From positions 1 to 25,909 of IMG/VR virus record IMGVR_UViG_3300017782_000191: a stretch of 25,909 nt of DNA. One strand, 5' to 3'. The translations under genes were made by a program, and so were the position numbers. The notes under the pieces are model-generated. The model was not told the DNA's origin, did no database searches, and saw only the letters and a list, made by a program, of their open reading frames with translations. Of this stretch, positions 1,216 to 25,394 are shown piece by piece; the stretch's first letter is position 1, and every line of letters begins with the position of its first letter. This DNA comes from a virus.

Positions 1216-3279
1216 ATGCCTTTAGGTGCAAGTAGATTAAACTTTCTAGCAAAAACACAGGTTGTAGTAGAAGCAGAAGTTATCGGAACAAAAGTTGGAT
1301 TAGCAGCAATTGGTAATGCACAGATTGATACAGCACAATCACAGTTTGGCGGTGCTAGTGCTCTATTTGATAGCAGTGGCGATTATCTAGCATTAAACAG
1401 TCAATCAGCAGGACCTGCACTAATACCATCAACAGGAGAATTTACCGCAGAATTATGGTTGCGTTTAGATGTTAATAACACAACGCAAGCATTAATACAT
1501 CAATATAATTATTTAGGAGGAGCTAGTAATCTAAATGGTAGATTTAGTTTCTATGTAAACAGCAGTGGTAAATTAGTATTGTTTATTGGCGGCACTGGAA
1601 CATTTACTATTACTGGATTCTCAACAGTATCTACAGGAGTTTGGCATCACATTGCGGTTACGAGAAATAGTAGCAATAGATTTGATGTTTGGTTAAATGG
1701 AACTAGTCAAGGCAATGCAACAAGTAGTATTAGTATAGTTGAAACTGCTTATACAGCAATAGCAAGTGCAAGTCATAGTCCGAATTTCTACTTAGATGGA
1801 CGAATTGACGAATTGCGTATCTCTGACACTGCACGTTATACAACATCCTTTACACCAAGTACAAGTGCGTTTATACATGACGACAATACATTGTTATTAG
1901 CACACATGAATGGCACTGATGGTTCAACTACATTTACAGATGACAAAGGTGAAAGAGAACAAAATGGTTTATCAGCAGTTGGCAATGCTGCATTAGATGT
2001 CACACAAGCAAAATTTGGTGGTACAAGTCTCTATACAGCAACTACAAGTAATGGTTATGCAGAAATTACAGATACTGATGAGGTAGATCTAAACCAATAT
2101 AGTAATTGGACTGTAGAGTTCCAGATTTATCCTGACAGCGCAAGCGGCAACAGACTCTTAAATCATGCACAGGCAGGATCGTATAATGGTTATTATATTA
2201 GAATGTCAAAAGCAGGTACAAATAACTATATGCAATGGGTTAGTTATAATGGCAGTAGCAATGTTACTAGACAGACTGTAAGTGGCGGACTAAATTACAA
2301 TCAATGGAATCATGTTGCCTTTGTTAAGAGTGGTTCGAACTTTAAGATCTACGGTAACGGAATACAAATTTACTCTACTTCGAGCTTTACGCAAGTGCCA
2401 GGGCCAAGTACAGCTTCGTTAATAATTAATGGTGGTGTTCAAAGCGGAAGTCCATATAATGCTAGATCGGTGTTTACAGGAACTGGACATTATTTAGACG
2501 AGATAAGAATATCAAAGATTGCAAGATATACAGGTGCATTTACACCACCAACAGCAGCACATATAAATGACTCAAATACAGTTTTATTAGCACACATGAA
2601 TGGCACTGATAATTCAACCGACCTCTTTGATGACAATGGTACAAGAGCACAAGTTGGATTAGAAGCAGTTGGTAATGCACAAGTAGATACTGCTGTAAGC
2701 TATTTCGGCGGCGGCAGCTTCCTAGGAGACGGATCAGGCGATTATTTAGATACAGGACAACCTTTAATACCAGAATATGACGACTGGACTGTAGAATGTT
2801 GGTTTAGATTCGATAATGCCACAGGTGAAGAAATTATAGCAAGTCAATATGCAGGTGGCACTGACGGTAGAGCAGTGTTCCTATACAGACATAGCAGTAC
2901 TGCCAAATTAAGATGCTTTATTAATGGTTGGAGTACACTAGAATCTACAACTGTATTAACAAACAACACTTGGTACCATGGTGCTGTAAGTAGAGATGGT
3001 GATACACTTAGATTGTTTGTTAATGGTACACTTGAATCTACACAAACAGCAAATGAAAATGTAATGCAAACTGAGAATTTCTGGATTGGACAACGTGCAG
3101 GTGGCAATGCGATTGATGGGAATATAGATGAGTTCCGTGTGTCAAGTGTAGCAAGATATACTGCTAGTTTTACACCGCCAACAGGACCACATGGCAATGA
3201 CTCAGATACATTGTTATTAGCACACATGGACGGCACTGATGGTTCAACTACATTTACAGATGATAACTCAAACTCATAA
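1216..3279 (+). CDS. Triple LamG/concanavalin A-like lectin adhesin
   Basis: This 687-residue protein is made of three tandem jelly-roll lectin (LamG-like) repeats at about residues 28-245, 250-475 and 481-687. Each repeat opens with a G-L-x-A-[IV]-GNA ... FGG-x-S motif. Each contains a W-T-[VA]-E-[LFC] strand (motif of the LamG_3 type) and W-[HY]-H-x-A-V or W-N-H-V-A-F, and each ends with [IL]-DE-[LIF]-R-[IV]-S ... ARYT ... F-T-P followed by LLLAHM-x-GTD. Such domains bind carbohydrates and occur in phage fibres, so a role in attaching to host glycans is likely. The ATG sits two bases after the previous stop. A 56-bp part of the first and third repeat ends is almost identical in DNA, which points to recent internal duplication or gene conversion. 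No catalytic residues are evident. Confidence 0.85.
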   Translation: MPLGASRLNFLAKTQVVVEAEVIGTKVGLAAIGNAQIDTAQSQFGGASALFDSSGDYLALNSQSAGPALIPSTGEFTAELWLRLDVNNTTQALIHQYNYLGGASNLNGRFSFYVNSSGKLVLFIGGTGTFTITGFSTVSTGVWHHIAVTRNSSNRFDVWLNGTSQGNATSSISIVETAYTAIASASHSPNFYLDGRIDELRISDTARYTTSFTPSTSAFIHDDNTLLLAHMNGTDGSTTFTDDKGEREQNGLSAVGNAALDVTQAKFGGTSLYTATTSNGYAEITDTDEVDLNQYSNWTVEFQIYPDSASGNRLLNHAQAGSYNGYYIRMSKAGTNNYMQWVSYNGSSNVTRQTVSGGLNYNQWNHVAFVKSGSNFKIYGNGIQIYSTSSFTQVPGPSTASLIINGGVQSGSPYNARSVFTGTGHYLDEIRISKIARYTGAFTPPTAAHINDSNTVLLAHMNGTDNSTDLFDDNGTRAQVGLEAVGNAQVDTAVSYFGGGSFLGDGSGDYLDTGQPLIPEYDDWTVECWFRFDNATGEEIIASQYAGGTDGRAVFLYRHSSTAKLRCFINGWSTLESTTVLTNNTWYHGAVSRDGDTLRLFVNGTLESTQTANENVMQTENFWIGQRAGGNAIDGNIDEFRVSSVARYTASFTPPTGPHGNDSDTLLLAHMDGTDGSTTFTDDNSNS
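1888..1943 (+). repeat. Direct DNA repeat, copy 1 (partner 3208-3263)
   Basis: This 56-bp segment encodes the TLLLAHM...GTDGSTTFTDD end of LamG repeat 1. It matches 3208-3263 at 54 of 56 positions by eye, with the same codons almost throughout. The equivalent segment of the middle repeat (around 2578-2633) is much more diverged. Confidence 0.85.
3208..3263 (+). repeat. Direct DNA repeat, copy 2 (partner 1888-1943)
   Basis: This is the second copy of the 56-bp repeat, placed exactly 1320 bp (440 codons) downstream of the first, at the end of the third LamG repeat. The two differences change Asn to Asp-like codons in the HM-[NG/DG]-TD stretch. Confidence 0.85.
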
Positions 3280-13170: not shown

Positions 13171-13569
13171 ATGGCAACATTTACAGGCGAAAATGGCCAA
13201 GTAAAAGCAGGCGCTGATGGCGCTGAAGTAGCAATCGCTGAAGTTCGTTCATGGACACTTGAACACACAAAAGATGTAGTTGAAGATACAGTTATGGGCG
13301 ATGCAGCAAGAACATATAAATCGGGATTGCATTCCTTTACAGGAACAATGGAAGTAGTGTATGACACAGGTCATGACGCACTAGGATCCTTTGACCCATC
13401 AGATGATACAGATCTATTTGTTGAATTCTATCCAAGTTCAGCAGCAGGTAACAAGTTCCAAGGACAAGTTATTGTAACATCTGTATCAAGAAGTGCAAGC
13501 TTTGATGATATGATCACTGCAAGTGTGAGTTTCCAAGGAACAGGCGCACTATCAAGCGCAGCAGTATAA
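13171..13569 (+). CDS. Major tail tube protein
   Basis: I use ATG 13171, seven bases after GAGGAG (13158-13163). The in-frame ATG at 13141 lies inside the previous gene and has no ribosome site. The 132-residue product has the tail tube pattern: an N-terminal GxVKAGADGAEVAIAEVRSWTLEHT strand pair, VMGDAARTYKSGLHSFTGTMEVVYD in the middle, and a final beta strand ending with VSFQGTGALS. Tube proteins form stacked hexameric rings. Size and position before the gp10-like and chaperone genes agree. Confidence 0.8.
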   Translation: MATFTGENGQVKAGADGAEVAIAEVRSWTLEHTKDVVEDTVMGDAARTYKSGLHSFTGTMEVVYDTGHDALGSFDPSDDTDLFVEFYPSSAAGNKFQGQVIVTSVSRSASFDDMITASVSFQGTGALSSAAV

Positions 13570-13570
13570 C

Positions 13571-13864
13571 ATGTTGCAACTATCAGTTCGTGGGATAGAT
13601 AAGGTAATGGACGGTCTTGAAAAAGAAAAAGATCGTATTGTTGACCAGATCGCCGAGGACAGTTTAGATTTAATAAAATCTAAAACTCCTATTGATAAGG
13701 GACAAGCAAGAGACGGTTGGCGCCGCGAAAGTGTTAAAGATGGATTTAACATTGTCAACCGAGTCCCATACATCGACCTACTCGAAAAAGGCAGATCAAA
13801 ACAAGCACCACGTGGTATACTAGGTCCTACCACACGGGAGATATCTAAAAGGAGATATAAATGA
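13571..13864 (+). CDS. HK97 gp10-like tail completion protein
   Basis: The 97-residue protein shows the gp10 family pattern: an N-terminal V-x-GIDKVMDGLEKEKDRI helix, TPIDKGQARDGWRRES at about residues 38-53, then NRVPYIDLLEKGRSKQAPRGIL at about 62-83. Members join the head connector to the tail in HK97-type phages. It starts one base after the tube stop and its stop overlaps the chaperone ATG (ATGA-type). The C-terminus is short but complete for the family. Confidence 0.8.
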   Translation: MLQLSVRGIDKVMDGLEKEKDRIVDQIAEDSLDLIKSKTPIDKGQARDGWRRESVKDGFNIVNRVPYIDLLEKGRSKQAPRGILGPTTREISKRRYK

Positions 13865-14199
13865 GTATTAAAGACAACATCAAATCACATTTCCGTGATA
13901 AAGTATCAGGTGAATTAAAAAAGATTACAGTAGAAGAGTGGAAGTCAGACATTTACCATAAAAATGCATATAGCTTCGCAGTCGAAAGTAAAATTATTAA
14001 TTTACAACAGCAAGGTAAAACAGTTGAAGCACTAGTTGAAAGTGTATTACAAAAAGCATTAGATCCAGAAGGTAAACCTATGTTCCATAGTTCAGACAGA
14101 CACATGCTGATGTACGAAGCTGATCCAAGTGTATTATTAAGAATTGCTAGTGTGTTAAATGATGCTACTACAGAATATGACGATATTGCAAAAAACTAA
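13861..14199 (+). CDS. Tail assembly chaperone, short form (G-like)
   Basis: The 112-residue unshifted product ends GCA AAA AAC TAA. Its position between tail tube/gp10 genes and the tape measure gene is that of lambda gpG. It is a mixed alpha/beta soluble protein with a C-terminal helix. In lambda-like phages the chaperone coats the tape measure protein during tail assembly and exists as a short form and a -1 frameshifted long form. The stop codon directly follows a canonical slippery heptamer, which strongly supports this identification. Confidence 0.82.
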   Translation: MSIKDNIKSHFRDKVSGELKKITVEEWKSDIYHKNAYSFAVESKIINLQQQGKTVEALVESVLQKALDPEGKPMFHSSDRHMLMYEADPSVLLRIASVLNDATTEYDDIAKN

Positions 14200-14375
14200 A
14201 ACAGGACGTTGAATTACAACTTCTATGCCGAGTTGGTGAAACATTAGGTAAAAGCTTAGATGAGGTAATGCAACTCAGCGTCCTAGAATTAGAAATATGG
14301 TACGAATACTTTCGTATGCAGCAGGAGACTATGAAGAATGGCAACGCAAACAATAAACATTCAGGTAAAAGATAA
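13861..14375 (+). CDS. Tail assembly chaperone, frameshifted long form (G-T-like)
   Basis: A -1 shift on A AAA AAC at 14190-14196 skips the TAA and continues in an open frame to TAA 14373-14375, adding 59 residues for a 171-residue fusion. The extension starts LKQDVELQLL and contains a SVLELEIWYEYFRMQQ helix. The W-Y-x-Y-F pattern near the end resembles T domains of other phages, which recruit the tape measure protein. The extension has no good start of its own and overlaps the tape measure ATG by 38 bp. The ratio of the two products matters for tail assembly in lambda. Confidence 0.82.
14190..14196 (+). promoter_or_regulatory. Programmed -1 frameshift slippery site A AAA AAC
   Basis: The heptamer A AAA AAC is in the correct phase (GCA AAA AAC TAA), with XXXYYYZ registered on zero-frame codons. 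It is the last sense codon pair before the stop. A stop right after the slip site is a common stimulator. I see no strong downstream hairpin by eye, only a possible weak one. Confidence 0.85.
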
Positions 14376-16851
14376 AACTGCCGGTGCATTAGGTAACATT
14401 GACAGACGTCTAAAAGGTATCGAAGGCACAATGGTTGGTGTAAACAAGGTTGCAGGTTTAGCAGCTGGTGCACTGGGTGCTATTGGTGGTGTAAATGTTA
14501 TTGGAAGTATAGTTAAAACTACTGCTAGATTCCAAGATCTTCGTACTGCATTAGCAAGTGTTACAGGATCAGCAAGGGAAGGTGCAAATGCATTCGCCTT
14601 TGTTAGTCAATTCGCAACACAAACACAATTTGGAGTCGATACCCTTAGTGAAGCTTTTATTAAGTTAAAAGCTGCGGGTATCGAACCCACACAGAAATTA
14701 TTAACAACATTTACAGATACAGCAGCAGTTACAACAGACCAACTTGGTACACTAACTGCTATGACAGACTTATTCGCAAGAACTACATCAGGTGGTTTAG
14801 GTTTAGAAGAATTAAACAGACTTGCAGATAGAGGTGTACCTGTATTTAAGATCCTAGAAGAGCAGTTAGGTATTACAAGACTAGAAGTATCTGAGTTTGG
14901 TAAAACTGCTGAAGGTGCAAGAAAAATTACAGAAGCACTAACTACTGGGTTAGATGCAAGCTTCGGTGGTGCAACTGCTGAACGTGCAAACAACTTATCA
15001 ACAGCAATATCCAACATGCAAATTGGTTTCCAAAACGTACAAGATGCAGTTGGATCAGGTGGATTTGGCGGTGCACTAACAGAATTAGTTAACCTGTTTA
15101 ACGAAGCACTTGCAAGAGTAATACCGCTTGCAAAACAAATTGGCGAAGATTTAGGATTTGGTATATTCCAAGCAACTAAGTTTCTACGAGAAAACACATT
15201 CGAACTAGGACAGTTTATTAAAGGCGCAACAATACTAGCAAGTGTACTAGGCGGCGCTGGTCTGATAAAAGTATTAAGCGGCGTTGCAACAGGTATAAGA
15301 ACAGTTACTATTGCAATGGCAAAGAATCCGTTTGGATTATTAGCAGTAGGTGCAGCTAGTTTAATCACATATTTAAGTATGGAGAATGGACTAGGTAGAA
15401 CAATTTCGCAAGTTAGCGCAGTGTTCAATAGACTTGGTGAAATAGCAAGCGCAGTTGGTACATTCTTAAAAGATAGCTTTAATAAAGTTGTAGAAAAAGT
15501 AACAGGTGCATTTGACAACTTCATAAACAAAGTTATAGGTGGTGTAAATGCAGTAGCTGAATTTGTTGGTATAGGTAAAATTGTAAATGTTACAAGTCAG
15601 CAGATGCGAACAGCAGTTGGCGATGTTGCAACACAAGCATTTACAGCGTTGTCTACAAAAGTAAGTGATGCTGTTGACAGTACAATTGAATATGTAAATG
15701 CAAGTGATCTAGCACAAGCTGCAACAGAAAAAGGCACAGCATTAATATCTGAATTAACTAAAGTATATCAAGATGCTGGTATGAGTTATGATGAAGCAAC
15801 AACAGCAGCTAGACAAGAATACGAAGCAACAATACTAAAAAATCACGGGTATGACGAAACAAACATTATATTACCGAAAATTGTAAGTAATCAGAATAAG
15901 GTTACAAGTGCATTTGGCACCACAACTACAAAAACAAAAGATTTAGCTAAAAATATAGATAGTCTAAAAGACAAGTATGCAGAGTTTATGTTTACATCTA
16001 CGCAATTAGCACAAGCAGAATATGCAAAAGATTTAGAAGCGTTTAAGGCAGCGTTAGATAGTAAAACTATTTCTAATGAAGATTACAACGCACTACAATT
16101 AGCTGCTGGTAAGAAATTACAAGATGCATTGGCAAAAATTGAAGATGAAAAAACTGCAAAGATTAAAGAAGAAAACCAAAAGCGTATTAGAGATTATCTA
16201 AATGCAGGCAACACAATCTTAAACGCAGAAGATAAAAGAAGATTGCGAGAAGAAGGCGCTGATGAAAGACGCAGACGCATGACTGATGAAAGAATCGAGT
16301 TTGAAAAGAAATCAGAGCTTGAAAAAACACAGTTCGCAATTGGTCAAGTTGGAGATGCTCTTACTGCACTAGGACGCTACAATAAACGTGCATTCGAAGC
16401 AGCAAAAGCATTCAACATTGCAAGCGCCATAATGAATACATATGCAGGTGCCACAAAAGCACTAGCAACATATCCGCCGCCCTTCAACTTCATCGCTGCT
16501 GGTGCTGTTATTGCAAGTGGTTTCGCACAGGTTGCAGCTATTAGAAGTCAACAGTACACAGGTAGACAACGTGGTGGTGCGTTACAAATTGGTAGAGAAA
16601 CAGTAGTTGGTGAAGATGGACCAGAGATTATTGTTCCGAAGCAACCTAGCACTGTTATACCAAGAGAAGTAGCAGAAGCAATTGACGGACTAGGCGGAGG
16701 CAATGGTGGAGAAAATGTTATTGTAAACTTCTCTATCACAACAGTTGACGCAGAAGACTTCGATCAATTATTAGTAAAACGTAGAGGCACTATTGTAGGT
16801 ATTATTAACCAAGCAATGCAAAAACGTGGTAAACGAGGAGTAACATCATAA
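14338..16851 (+). CDS. Tape measure protein
   Basis: The protein has 837 residues, is long and Ala/Gly/Thr-rich, and is mainly helical. The N-terminal tape-measure domain (about residues 55-230) has FQDLRTALASVTGSAREGANAFAFV and GLGLEELNRLADRGVPVFKILEEQLG, the standard pattern. Hydrophobic Gly/Ala segments follow, then a charged coiled-coil (about 545-660). The C-terminal end has GGALQIGRETVVGEDGPEIIVPKQPSTVIP, typical of siphovirus tape measures. By the usual 0.15 nm per residue the tail would be roughly 125 nm. The start at ATG 14338 has AGGAG (14323-14327) inside the chaperone extension. Confidence 0.93.
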   Translation: MATQTINIQVKDKTAGALGNIDRRLKGIEGTMVGVNKVAGLAAGALGAIGGVNVIGSIVKTTARFQDLRTALASVTGSAREGANAFAFVSQFATQTQFGVDTLSEAFIKLKAAGIEPTQKLLTTFTDTAAVTTDQLGTLTAMTDLFARTTSGGLGLEELNRLADRGVPVFKILEEQLGITRLEVSEFGKTAEGARKITEALTTGLDASFGGATAERANNLSTAISNMQIGFQNVQDAVGSGGFGGALTELVNLFNEALARVIPLAKQIGEDLGFGIFQATKFLRENTFELGQFIKGATILASVLGGAGLIKVLSGVATGIRTVTIAMAKNPFGLLAVGAASLITYLSMENGLGRTISQVSAVFNRLGEIASAVGTFLKDSFNKVVEKVTGAFDNFINKVIGGVNAVAEFVGIGKIVNVTSQQMRTAVGDVATQAFTALSTKVSDAVDSTIEYVNASDLAQAATEKGTALISELTKVYQDAGMSYDEATTAARQEYEATILKNHGYDETNIILPKIVSNQNKVTSAFGTTTTKTKDLAKNIDSLKDKYAEFMFTSTQLAQAEYAKDLEAFKAALDSKTISNEDYNALQLAAGKKLQDALAKIEDEKTAKIKEENQKRIRDYLNAGNTILNAEDKRRLREEGADERRRRMTDERIEFEKKSELEKTQFAIGQVGDALTALGRYNKRAFEAAKAFNIASAIMNTYAGATKALATYPPPFNFIAAGAVIASGFAQVAAIRSQQYTGRQRGGALQIGRETVVGEDGPEIIVPKQPSTVIPREVAEAIDGLGGGNGGENVIVNFSITTVDAEDFDQLLVKRRGTIVGIINQAMQKRGKRGVTS

Positions 16852-17462: not shown

Positions 17463-18031
17463 TGACAAGAGGACTTAGTACTGCACAAAACACATACCTT
17501 GCAGGCGATAGTCTTGTTGTTGCAAGTTTAGTAGAAATTGGATTGTATGGCACAACTAATTTATATTACACAGACTCACCGTTTGATATTACAATAAACA
17601 GTAGAACCTATGATGCACAAGGTGTGTTTCTAGGTGTATCAGAAAATCAAGAAACAGCAGATCTACAAGTTACAAGCATCAACTTAACACTATCAGCACT
17701 AGATAGTAATACTGTGTCAACTGTTGCTAAAAGTGCAAACATTAACCAGACAGTTACAATTGAAAAAGTTTTATTAGATCCTACTACATATGCACCTATC
17801 GGCACTAACGAAACTATTGTCATATTCAAAGGTAAAATAGTTGGTTATCGAATAGATAACAATAATGACACAGCAACATTGGTTCTAGAAATTAACAGTC
17901 AATTTACAAACTTCCTTAAAACAGTTGGACGTAGAACAAACTTGGGTAACTTCCAGAAAGAACATCCAACAGACTTCAGCATGGAATATAGTCATGAACC
18001 AACTAGAGATATTAAATGGGGAAGAGTATGA
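17462..18031 (+). CDS. Minor tail protein, DUF2163/gpL-like
   Basis: The 189-residue beta-rich protein has VVASLVEIGLYGTTNLYYTDSPFDITINSRTYDAQGVFLG at its start, then strands of ADLQVTSINLTLSALD and a C-terminal FLKTVGRRTNL..FQKEHPTDFSMEYSHEPTRDIKWGR. The LxxGR-TN...H..D-x-[FS]-[EM] ending is typical of DUF2163 or gpL-type tip proteins that precede the J gene. Unlike lambda gpL there is no Cys cluster for an iron-sulphur site. It overlaps the next gene by ATGA. Confidence 0.65.
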   Translation: MTRGLSTAQNTYLAGDSLVVASLVEIGLYGTTNLYYTDSPFDITINSRTYDAQGVFLGVSENQETADLQVTSINLTLSALDSNTVSTVAKSANINQTVTIEKVLLDPTTYAPIGTNETIVIFKGKIVGYRIDNNNDTATLVLEINSQFTNFLKTVGRRTNLGNFQKEHPTDFSMEYSHEPTRDIKWGRV

Positions 18032-18516
18032 TAAGAGAAGTTAAACCTAAAGAGATTGGATTGTTATGTGACTTATGTGCTGAACATGCGCTTGATGCAG
18101 GACTTGTAACACATGATCAACTTGACAGAAAGTTTGTCAAGGAACAAATTAAAAAAGGCATTATAAATCCTAATATGCAAATCTACGTGTACGAAGAAGG
18201 TGACCAGTTTATAGGTTATGTAGCAGGTGCAGGTAAACAGAAAATATGGAACGGCACAGTGTATGGAGAAATAATATTATTCTTCGTGCATCCTGAAGCT
18301 AGAAAAGGTAAACGTATTGCAGACGAATTGTTTATGGCAATACAAGATTGGTTTGTTGAAGTTGGTTGCGTATACATGCAAGCAAGTAATATGATATTTA
18401 ATGAAGATTATCAACCCGATGACGAATGGTTAACAAAAGCAAGAACATATTACAAGCAACAAGATATGGCAGAGTGCGGATATCACTTTGTTAAGGACTT
18501 GGAGATGTTTAGATGA
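18028..18516 (+). CDS. GNAT-family N-acetyltransferase in tail-tip cluster
   Basis: I choose ATG 18028, which forms an ATGA overlap with the previous stop; ATG 18016 lies further inside the previous gene. The 162-residue product reads MIREVKPKEIGLLCDLC, typical of GNAT starts. Motif A is the strand IILFFVHPEARKGKRIADELF (residues about 82-103), the acetyl-CoA pyrophosphate loop. The spacing of the G in R-K-G-K-R is slightly different from the standard R-x-x-G-x-G. It sits where lambda-like phages usually have an NlpC/P60 gene (gpK). The substrate is unknown. It could modify a tail protein or a host target. Confidence 0.75.
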   Translation: MIREVKPKEIGLLCDLCAEHALDAGLVTHDQLDRKFVKEQIKKGIINPNMQIYVYEEGDQFIGYVAGAGKQKIWNGTVYGEIILFFVHPEARKGKRIADELFMAIQDWFVEVGCVYMQASNMIFNEDYQPDDEWLTKARTYYKQQDMAECGYHFVKDLEMFR

Positions 18517-23587: not shown

Positions 23588-24072
23588 TACGCTACAACAA
23601 AAGAATTGATATAAAAACAAACACACAAGGTGTTACAAGTATTTGCACAGACAGAGGCACAACATATCGCACAAGTTTAGTACGTACAGAATATGGAACT
23701 CCTAGAACTACGTGGTGGGATAAACAACACAAGAGCGAACTAAGAGAATGGCAAAAGGATGCACTGCTAGGCGAGTTTGATAGATGCTATCGCAGAATTA
23801 GCGCAACACACCTACTACAGTATTATCTAGTGTATGAAGAAAACAAAGGATTCAATCAACCTCATGATATAGTGTTTGCAAGAATACCTACAGCACAACT
23901 ATGGATACTTGGCACACAACAAGAGATATGGTTACACAAGTCAGACTTAGAGAACTTCTCACTACATCCTACTACAAGTCATAAGTTTAATTTAGAATTA
24001 GCTAATGATAGACAACAATGGTATAAACATATACTAGATCCTATTGAACAATATATAAAGGAAGTAGCATGA
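23584..24072 (+). CDS. Hypothetical protein, early operon
   Basis: The 162-residue product is coupled to both neighbours by ATGA overlaps. It is rich in Trp, His, Gln and Arg, for example TWWDKQHKSELREWQKDALLGEFDRCYRRI, and ends in a helix (WYKHILDPIEQYIKEV). I recognise no motif, membrane segment or metal site. It carries none of the motifs missing from the methyltransferase that follows (no F-x-G-x-G). Confidence 0.6.
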   Translation: MIRYNKRIDIKTNTQGVTSICTDRGTTYRTSLVRTEYGTPRTTWWDKQHKSELREWQKDALLGEFDRCYRRISATHLLQYYLVYEENKGFNQPHDIVFARIPTAQLWILGTQQEIWLHKSDLENFSLHPTTSHKFNLELANDRQQWYKHILDPIEQYIKEVA

Positions 24073-24821
24073 AGTTTGACCTAGTAATTGGTAATCCTCC
24101 TTATAACAGCTTAGATACTTCAAGAGAAAATACATCTCATAGAGGACAAGGCGATAACCTTGCTAAAAAATTTACTATTAAATCTTTAGATTTATTAAAA
24201 TCCACTGGACATATGGCATATATTTTACCATATGGCGAACGAACGTATTCAATTGCTCTAGCAGAGTCATATAGACTGCAAGGGTTATATAAGATTGACA
24301 GTGCAGAACAACATTTCAAACACGTTTCAACTAATCCTTGCATATTTTATTTTGATAAAAACAAAGTTGCGAGTAAGGTAGAAGACAATTACAAAGCACA
24401 CACTCGCACTATTCCAGATGCAAATATAGGAAGTATCTTTAAGAATCAACCAGGTCGACTAAATCGTGCGGACTATGAAGACGCATTGCGTGACTCAGGA
24501 AAGTATAGAATTGTAGTAACTACTCGAGTACAAGGATATACTGATGATGTTGGTATTGTAGAGCAAATGAAAGACTCAACAGTGGGTAACTGGCGTGTAG
24601 TAATGAATTGTACAACATCAAAAGGAAAATTTGGTAAACTTATAGTTGAAGCACCAGACAGTATTTTAAGCAAAAGTGTACACTGTTTAATTTGTAAAGA
24701 TGAGGCACATGCAAATACTCTAAAAGAGTATTTGGAATCCAAGGCAGCAGCAACTATTCTAGCAGAAGTAAAGTTAAATGCATGTAATAGTAAAAAGTTT
24801 TTACAGTACATCCCGCTGTGA
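24069..24821 (+). CDS. NPPY-type adenine DNA methyltransferase, lacking motif I region
   Basis: The 250-residue product begins MKFDLVIGNPPYN, so the catalytic motif IV NPPY is at residues 9-12. Sequence after it (KSTGHMAYILPYGERTYS, then YFDKNK) fits motifs V-VI of N6-adenine methyltransferases of the Eco57I type. The usual N-terminal part with the SAM-binding motif I (F-x-G-x-G) is absent and is not found in the preceding ORF. Either the gene is a truncated relative, as seen in some phage proteins, or it works with another protein. It could protect phage DNA from host restriction. The ATGA overlap shows this start is the used one. Confidence 0.7.
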   Translation: MKFDLVIGNPPYNSLDTSRENTSHRGQGDNLAKKFTIKSLDLLKSTGHMAYILPYGERTYSIALAESYRLQGLYKIDSAEQHFKHVSTNPCIFYFDKNKVASKVEDNYKAHTRTIPDANIGSIFKNQPGRLNRADYEDALRDSGKYRIVVTTRVQGYTDDVGIVEQMKDSTVGNWRVVMNCTTSKGKFGKLIVEAPDSILSKSVHCLICKDEAHANTLKEYLESKAAATILAEVKLNACNSKKFLQYIPL

Positions 24822-24851: not shown

Positions 24852-25394
24852 ATGAACCTAGCAAAACAATATCACGAACACAACCCAGAAGCAGGCGTAG
24901 GCAAACAGTATCCATATCTGTTAGAAAAACTACAACACGTGAATAGCTTCAATAGTATACTAGACTTCGGTGCCGGTAAGGGAGGCACAGCACGTTGGTT
25001 AAACCAAGAACTTAAATTAGACATACAATGTTATGATCCAGGTGTAGATGAATACAATGATAGTCGTATAGTAACAAATAGATATTGGGATTATATATAC
25101 TCAGCAGATGTACTAGAACATATCCCTCTAGCAGAATTAAAACAACACACACTACCGTTACTAGCAGGAACAATCAATTATGAAATGTACTTGATAATAG
25201 ATCTAACACCAGCAAAGAAAACATTACCAGATGGACGCAATGCACATATAACATTATTAACAGAAGACGCTTGGGTAGAAGTATTAAGAGAACATATAAA
25301 GATACAAGAGATTAGTATAGATGAACAACCAGATAAGAACTTTGGCACAAGACGTAGACTGTGTGTAACAGGTAGAAGAACAAAGAAACAATAA
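24852..25394 (+). CDS. Class I SAM-dependent methyltransferase
   Basis: The 180-residue protein has motif I ILDFGAGKGG (residues 36-45), an acidic post-I residue in CYDPGVDE, and YIYSADVLEHIP as motif IV-like loop (about residues 79-90). This is the small-molecule or protein methyltransferase type rather than a DNA adenine enzyme, as there is no NPPY. The substrate is unknown. It follows the NPPY gene by 30 bp with a ribosome site AAGGAAA (24841-24847). The length is short but complete for the core Rossmann fold. Confidence 0.78.
   Translation: MNLAKQYHEHNPEAGVGKQYPYLLEKLQHVNSFNSILDFGAGKGGTARWLNQELKLDIQCYDPGVDEYNDSRIVTNRYWDYIYSADVLEHIPLAELKQHTLPLLAGTINYEMYLIIDLTPAKKTLPDGRNAHITLLTEDAWVEVLREHIKIQEISIDEQPDKNFGTRRRLCVTGRRTKKQ

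Follow-up and report, generated by a model that had tools for sequence, protein, structure and literature searches.

A programmed -1 ribosomal frameshift very likely provides the marine phage studied here with two tail assembly chaperones from a single start codon, as judged by comparison with related sequences. The window, i.e., the entire virus record of 25,909 bases, contains for this purpose the slip site A_AAA_AAC at the end of a short chaperone gene ('G'), a stop codon directly behind it, an open -1 frame ('T' part) and, past the stop codon, a long-range RNA stem (Table 1). A sequence-only reading had proposed a chaperone fusion of the lambda G/GT type, and this view agrees with the gene order, the chaperone fold and profile, and the retention of the slip site among relatives.

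Table 1 Features of the chaperone region in the window
Feature	Position	Strand	Evidence or remark
Major tail (tube) protein	13171..13569	+	phrog_10528, 1.3e-13; neighbour upstream
Tail completion protein, HK97 gp10-like	13571..13864	+	Pfam PF04883, 6.5e-6; phrog_169, 1.2e-11
Short tail assembly chaperone 'G', 112 aa, zero frame (predicted)	13861..14199	+	ORF; phrog_344; AlphaFold2 fold
Slip site A_AAA_AAC, zero-frame phase (X_XXY_YYZ)	14190..14196	+	Sequence; in phase in 79/80 distinct contexts
-1 frame extension ('T' part), 59 codons + stop (14373-14375)	14196..14375	+	No stops in relatives; dN/dS; model
Zero-frame stop TAA, directly 3' of slip site, within 6-nt spacer	14197..14199	+	Adjacent in 76/80 contexts
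6-nt spacer, slip site to stem	14197..14202	+	Sequence; stop codon inside spacer
5' arm of putative stimulatory stem, AGGACGTTGA	14203..14212	+	Pairing, covariation, codon skew
3' arm of putative stimulatory stem, TCAGCGTCCT	14275..14284	+	Pairing, covariation, codon skew
Tape measure protein	14338..16851	+	Pfam TMP_3, 9.3e-15; phrog_3336, 4.2e-27

Genomic context and the short chaperone

The window harbours a structural gene cluster of a tailed phage (terminase, portal, capsid, tail terminator, tail tube, tail completion and tape measure proteins), in which the chaperone gene is located between those for the major tail (tube) protein and the tape measure protein. Based on the terminase, the closest annotated relative is phage DSL-LC06 (67 % identity), followed by the Pelagibacter phages HTVC202P, 111P, 112P and 026P (50-52 % identity). 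Elsewhere in the window, a GNAT acetyltransferase (18016-18516; Pfam, 3.9e-7) is encoded between tail genes within the tail cluster, a protein with three concanavalin A-like lectin/laminin G domains (1216-3279; 4.4e-56) is likely a tail fibre or adhesin, and an Eco57I-like methylase fragment (24069-24821; Pfam, 2.3e-9) as well as a second methyltransferase (24852-25394; 3.4e-7) lie close to the window end.

In profile searches, 70 of 71 relatives matched phrog_344 (tail assembly chaperone; best value 5.4e-8). The AlphaFold2 model of G, for which the alignment was restricted to sequences from IMG/VR, from a genome contig and from the window, has a pLDDT of 84. The HK97 tail assembly chaperone (2OB9) was the only PDB match of this model below an E-value of 1e-3 in the fold search (E 5.9e-4; TM 0.6, 18 % identity in the matched region); among predicted viral structures, it also hit proteins named as tail assembly chaperones. 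A sequence search of the PDB with G yielded nothing meaningful. The zero-frame product is a tail assembly chaperone as predicted from modelled fold, profile and gene position.

Slip site and adjacent stop codon

The 3' end of the chaperone gene reads GCA AAA AAC TAA, confirming the earlier observation of an A AAA AAC heptamer in zero-frame phase with TAA next to it. Nine in-phase X_XXY_YYZ heptamers are found in all in the forward genes of the window; only one other of them is an A_AAA_AAC, and there the -1 frame is shut after 8 codons. Related loci were drawn from IMG/VR, isolate phages and one genome contig, resulting in 80 distinct contexts. An in-phase A_AAA_AA(C/G) slip site is present in 79 of these (A_AAA_AAG in 2), and the stop codon follows directly in 76. 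Within the window family (73 rows), this stop is TAA in 70 cases, TAG in 1 and TCG-TAG in 2. The Asn codon of the slip site is AAC in all 69 aligned rows, although AAT accounts for 59 % of the Asn codons in these genes. To judge from these sequence patterns, the arrangement of heptamer, stop codon and -1 frame is more than chance. A silent variant of the slip site that breaks the heptamer would be GCAAAGAAC.

The single context without a slip site belongs to a distant relative (L183, Marine virus AG-345-A17; approximately 1240-1330), which lacks the heptamer and carries a T-like stretch (NNQWKFLYSLAKELGKTVAEL) in the +1 frame, past the stop, after AAA AGC TAA; this phage may use +1 frameshifting instead. 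A contig assigned to a bacterium (L177, MAG of Porticoccaceae, NZEU01000001.1) contains the same phage cassette and is probably a phage contig binned into the MAG.

In E. coli, slipping at A_AAA_AAC is weak as compared to A_AAA_AAG; use of the former has been reported for the haloarchaeal virus HCTV-2 (PMC5009743). The slip-to-stop distance averages 26 and 36 nt in surveys (PMC10885494). Upstream of the slip site, an SD-like element (GAGG/AGGA/GGAG, about 10-13 nt before it) occurs in 47 of the 73 window-family rows, and 62 of the 73 rows have GAG as the Glu codon at position -3; the window itself has no such element about 10 nt before its slip site.

A covarying stem downstream of the stop codon

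The sequence-only reading had seen no clear stimulatory hairpin downstream and considered that the site may be a simple variant without a stimulator. Both points have to be revised, since a 10-bp stem, perfect with one G-U pair and enclosing a 62-nt loop, begins 6 nt after the heptamer, where the usual spacer for such structures is 5-9 nt (PMC5009743). With 62 nt separating its arms, the stem easily escapes visual inspection. It is present in the minimum-energy fold of the window (-26.2 kcal/mol, z -3.3). Folding from the stop codon onward gave z-scores of -2.7 to -6.2 for seven window-family members, all of which except L008 pair from +5 or +6 with the homologous 3' arm.

Across an alignment of 69 gapless relatives (A3), 94.9 % of the stem cells are paired vs 27-42 % in controls with the 3' arm displaced by 1-3 columns, and 31 cells are changed on both stem sides vs 8.5 in shuffles (0/500), the rows being related sequences whose kinship is only partly corrected by tree contrasts. 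For the latter, a tree of the upstream G gene was used, with slip site and stem excluded. Pair 19/90 switches between A-U and G-C on both sides together in about 7 of 8 independent contrasts and never against (p 0.016). The ninth stem pair is broken in 14 of the 69 rows, and the stem of one relative (L173) comprises only 5 bp. An Rfam search gave no match at E-values up to 1.

Such a stem could be incidental to a real frameshift, arising from amino acid conservation at both arms, which indeed encode conserved residues (EDxE, SVLE). Synonymous shuffles of single sequences often yield just p 0.01-0.2, with as many as 20 % of draws equalling the observed stem; since they are too weak as sole proof, covariation and tree contrasts were used instead. 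The incidental origin is nevertheless very unlikely on several grounds. Firstly, the 3'-side change at pair 19/90 is often silent, with Ser28 encoded by AGT where codon 5 specifies Thr or Ile and by AGC where it specifies Val, i.e., on the tree the choice of the Ser codon tracks base 1 of codon 5. Secondly, rare codons are fixed at the arms: the Glu codon overlapping the start of the 5' arm is GAG in 64/64 relatives (21 % background), and in the 3' arm Val is encoded by GTC in 60/64 (7 %) and Leu by CTC in 25/40 (1 %). Thirdly, the usual 3' arm is lost in three relatives (L008, L013 and L026), where the same 5' arm pairs with GTGTCC 14 nt earlier (+67-73). Finally, roseophages possess an unrelated stem at the same +6 offset. 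Thus, the comparative evidence argues that the stem is a conserved, covarying and previously overlooked RNA structure past the stop codon. A literature search with partial coverage of subscription papers found no description of it, so an earlier one is possible; three papers naming the relatives CRP-811, DSL-LC06 and the HTVC phages mention no frameshift.

Slip-plus-stop units in other phage families

Three further chaperone families were scanned. All 81 loci of the roseophage family (CRP-811) contain A_AAA_AAC with an adjacent stop, followed at +6 by a 12-bp stem of different sequence with a 79-nt loop. Of its cells, 96.0 % are paired, with 14 double changes among 44 distinct rows, and the tree test points in the same direction (2.4 of 4 contrasts, none against), the events being too few for significance. 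The pelagiphage family of HTVC111P/112P (82 loci) has A_AAA_AAG and an adjacent stop throughout, together with a 7-bp hairpin at +5; no covariation was found for this hairpin, whose arms hardly vary. In the HTVC202P pelagiphage family (81 loci; L002 and L344-L423), A_AAA_AAC is directly followed by the stop in 71 loci, and the scan shows no such stem. The stem is therefore not universal; as the comparison of families indicates, the slip-plus-stop unit persists across changes in the element that follows it.

In HTVC202P and HTVC026P, the slip site is embedded in a run of nine As (GTA AAA AAA AAC TAA). Because of this run and the missing stem, transcriptional slippage is a live possibility in the HTVC202P family, with RNA polymerase adding or dropping an A and some mRNAs consequently encoding the fusion in frame. 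An A-run also precedes the -1 extension of the window, but with 6 As it is shorter than the runs of more than 7 As associated with this process (PMC3711429), and slippage would not account for the constancy of phase and of the C at position 7, nor for the adjacent stop and the stem at +6. For the window, it is accordingly very unlikely.

The -1 frame extension

Frameshifting at the slip site is predicted to result in a fusion of 171 aa with the junction peptide YDDIAKNLKQDVE. The earlier description of a -1 frame open for 59 codons, containing a W-Y segment (IWYEYF) and overlapping the tape measure start, proved correct; the overlap amounts to 38 nt. Relatives that lost the heptamer or have stops in the -1 frame had been named as evidence against the fusion; apart from the one context lacking the slip site, neither was encountered, stops in the extension frame occurring in 0 of the 69 aligned relatives vs 69/69 and 68/69 in the other two frames. 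Median pairwise dN/dS in this alignment is 0.157 in the -1 frame vs 0.78 and 2.49 in the others, and on this sequence evidence the extension is considered protein-coding and under purifying selection. The AlphaFold2 model of the T part is helical (pLDDT 83). A match spanning the junction links the fusion to phrog_16513, a tail assembly chaperone profile, with E-values of 3.5e-4 (window) and 1.1e-8 (DSL-LC06); profile matches of the T part by itself are weak, and its comparison with Pfam gave chance-level families only.

Alternatively, the extension could represent a separate protein, translated from an internal start codon and coupled to termination of G. Many relatives have ATG, GTG or TTG at about extension codon 9-11, but the residues upstream of that codon are conserved as protein (L1, E3, D4, E6 and L7), in 21 of 79 relatives extension codons 1-20 include no start-like codon, and a -1 frame start before the slip site is missing in 78 of 79, rendering this possibility highly improbable. 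That G alone is formed, with heptamer, stop and extension being decaying remnants or a sequencing error, would agree with the annotation of only the short form in the GenBank relatives (DSL-LC06, HTVC111P/112P/202P/026P and CRP-811), but is contradicted already by conservation, given the recurrence of the arrangement in dozens of independent contigs and complete isolate genomes, the purifying selection on the -1 frame and the covarying stem, and has a negligible probability.

Two GenBank entries (L179, 1406-1552; L180, 1406-1558) place a hypothetical protein on the minus strand across the -1 extension of a pelagiphage chaperone, probably a spurious gene call that probably came about because the frameshift is unannotated.

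Proposed mechanism

With programmed -1 frameshifting as the preferred explanation, most ribosomes would read positions 13861-14196 and end at TAA, releasing the 112-aa G, while a minority would slip one base back at A_AAA_AAC and add 59 residues to yield the 171-aa GT. The stem presumably reaches the mRNA entry of the ribosome while the Lys and Asn codons are decoded, pausing the ribosome and driving the slip; both tRNAs would then re-pair one base back and reading would resume with CUA. Since the stop codon is located inside the spacer, unshifted ribosomes should terminate before melting the stem, which only shifted ones would cross. By analogy to lambda gpG/gpGT, G and GT may coat the tape measure protein, with the T part recruiting the tail tube protein at a set ratio. 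In lambda, the G:GT ratio is about 30:1, and both proteins act on the tape measure (PMC5009743).

One may speculate further, as a tentative extension of this scheme, that the stop codon is itself a working part of the signal: slipping would compete with the release factor while the stem holds the ribosome, the G:GT ratio would be set by release factor supply, and the stem would never be melted by unshifted ribosomes. Related marine phages would then keep the slip-plus-stop unit and swap the stimulator (long-range stem, short hairpin or longer A-run).

Relation to known frameshifting systems

The slip site of lambda is G_GGA_AAG, while the window uses A_AAA_AAC with the stop directly behind it and a conserved downstream stem. 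As far as the lambda gpG/gpGT system is described in PMC5009743 (citing Levin 1993 and Xu 2004), it shares with the window the order of tube protein, chaperone and tape measure as well as an extension ending over the tape measure start, and the roles of G and GT are presumed to be the same. With respect to E. coli dnaX, the window shares an A-rich heptamer and a stem about 5-6 nt downstream, the majority of its relatives also an SD-like element, and the HTVC111P/112P phages A_AAA_AAG plus a short hairpin. The window differs in having AAC, no SD-like element and the 62-nt loop; moreover, the dnaX shift shortens the product, whereas that in the window extends it. A stop right after the heptamer, followed by a stem, is otherwise known from HIV-1 sites in which the next codon was made a stop, and in these constructs the release factor competes with slipping (PMC4373837). 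The HIV-1 case is an engineered construct in human cells, whereas the arrangement in the window is natural and conserved in phages.

By its sequence features, the window case is lambda-type G/GT frameshifting in a dnaX-like variant with long-range stem and adjacent stop. Since frameshifted tail chaperones are a long-known class, it represents a new member thereof; as a variant, it is marked by a stop codon immediately behind the slip site, by a covarying stem of long range and by A_AAA_AAC as the heptamer. The G/GT class thereby gains uncultured aquatic phages, among them relatives of pelagiphages and roseophages. With slip site and stop constant and the RNA structure differing by family, what spacer, stop and stem each contribute to -1 frameshifting in bacteria becomes directly testable, and a heptamer as weak in E. 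coli as A_AAA_AAC prompts a concrete question on the tRNA-Asn of the hosts.
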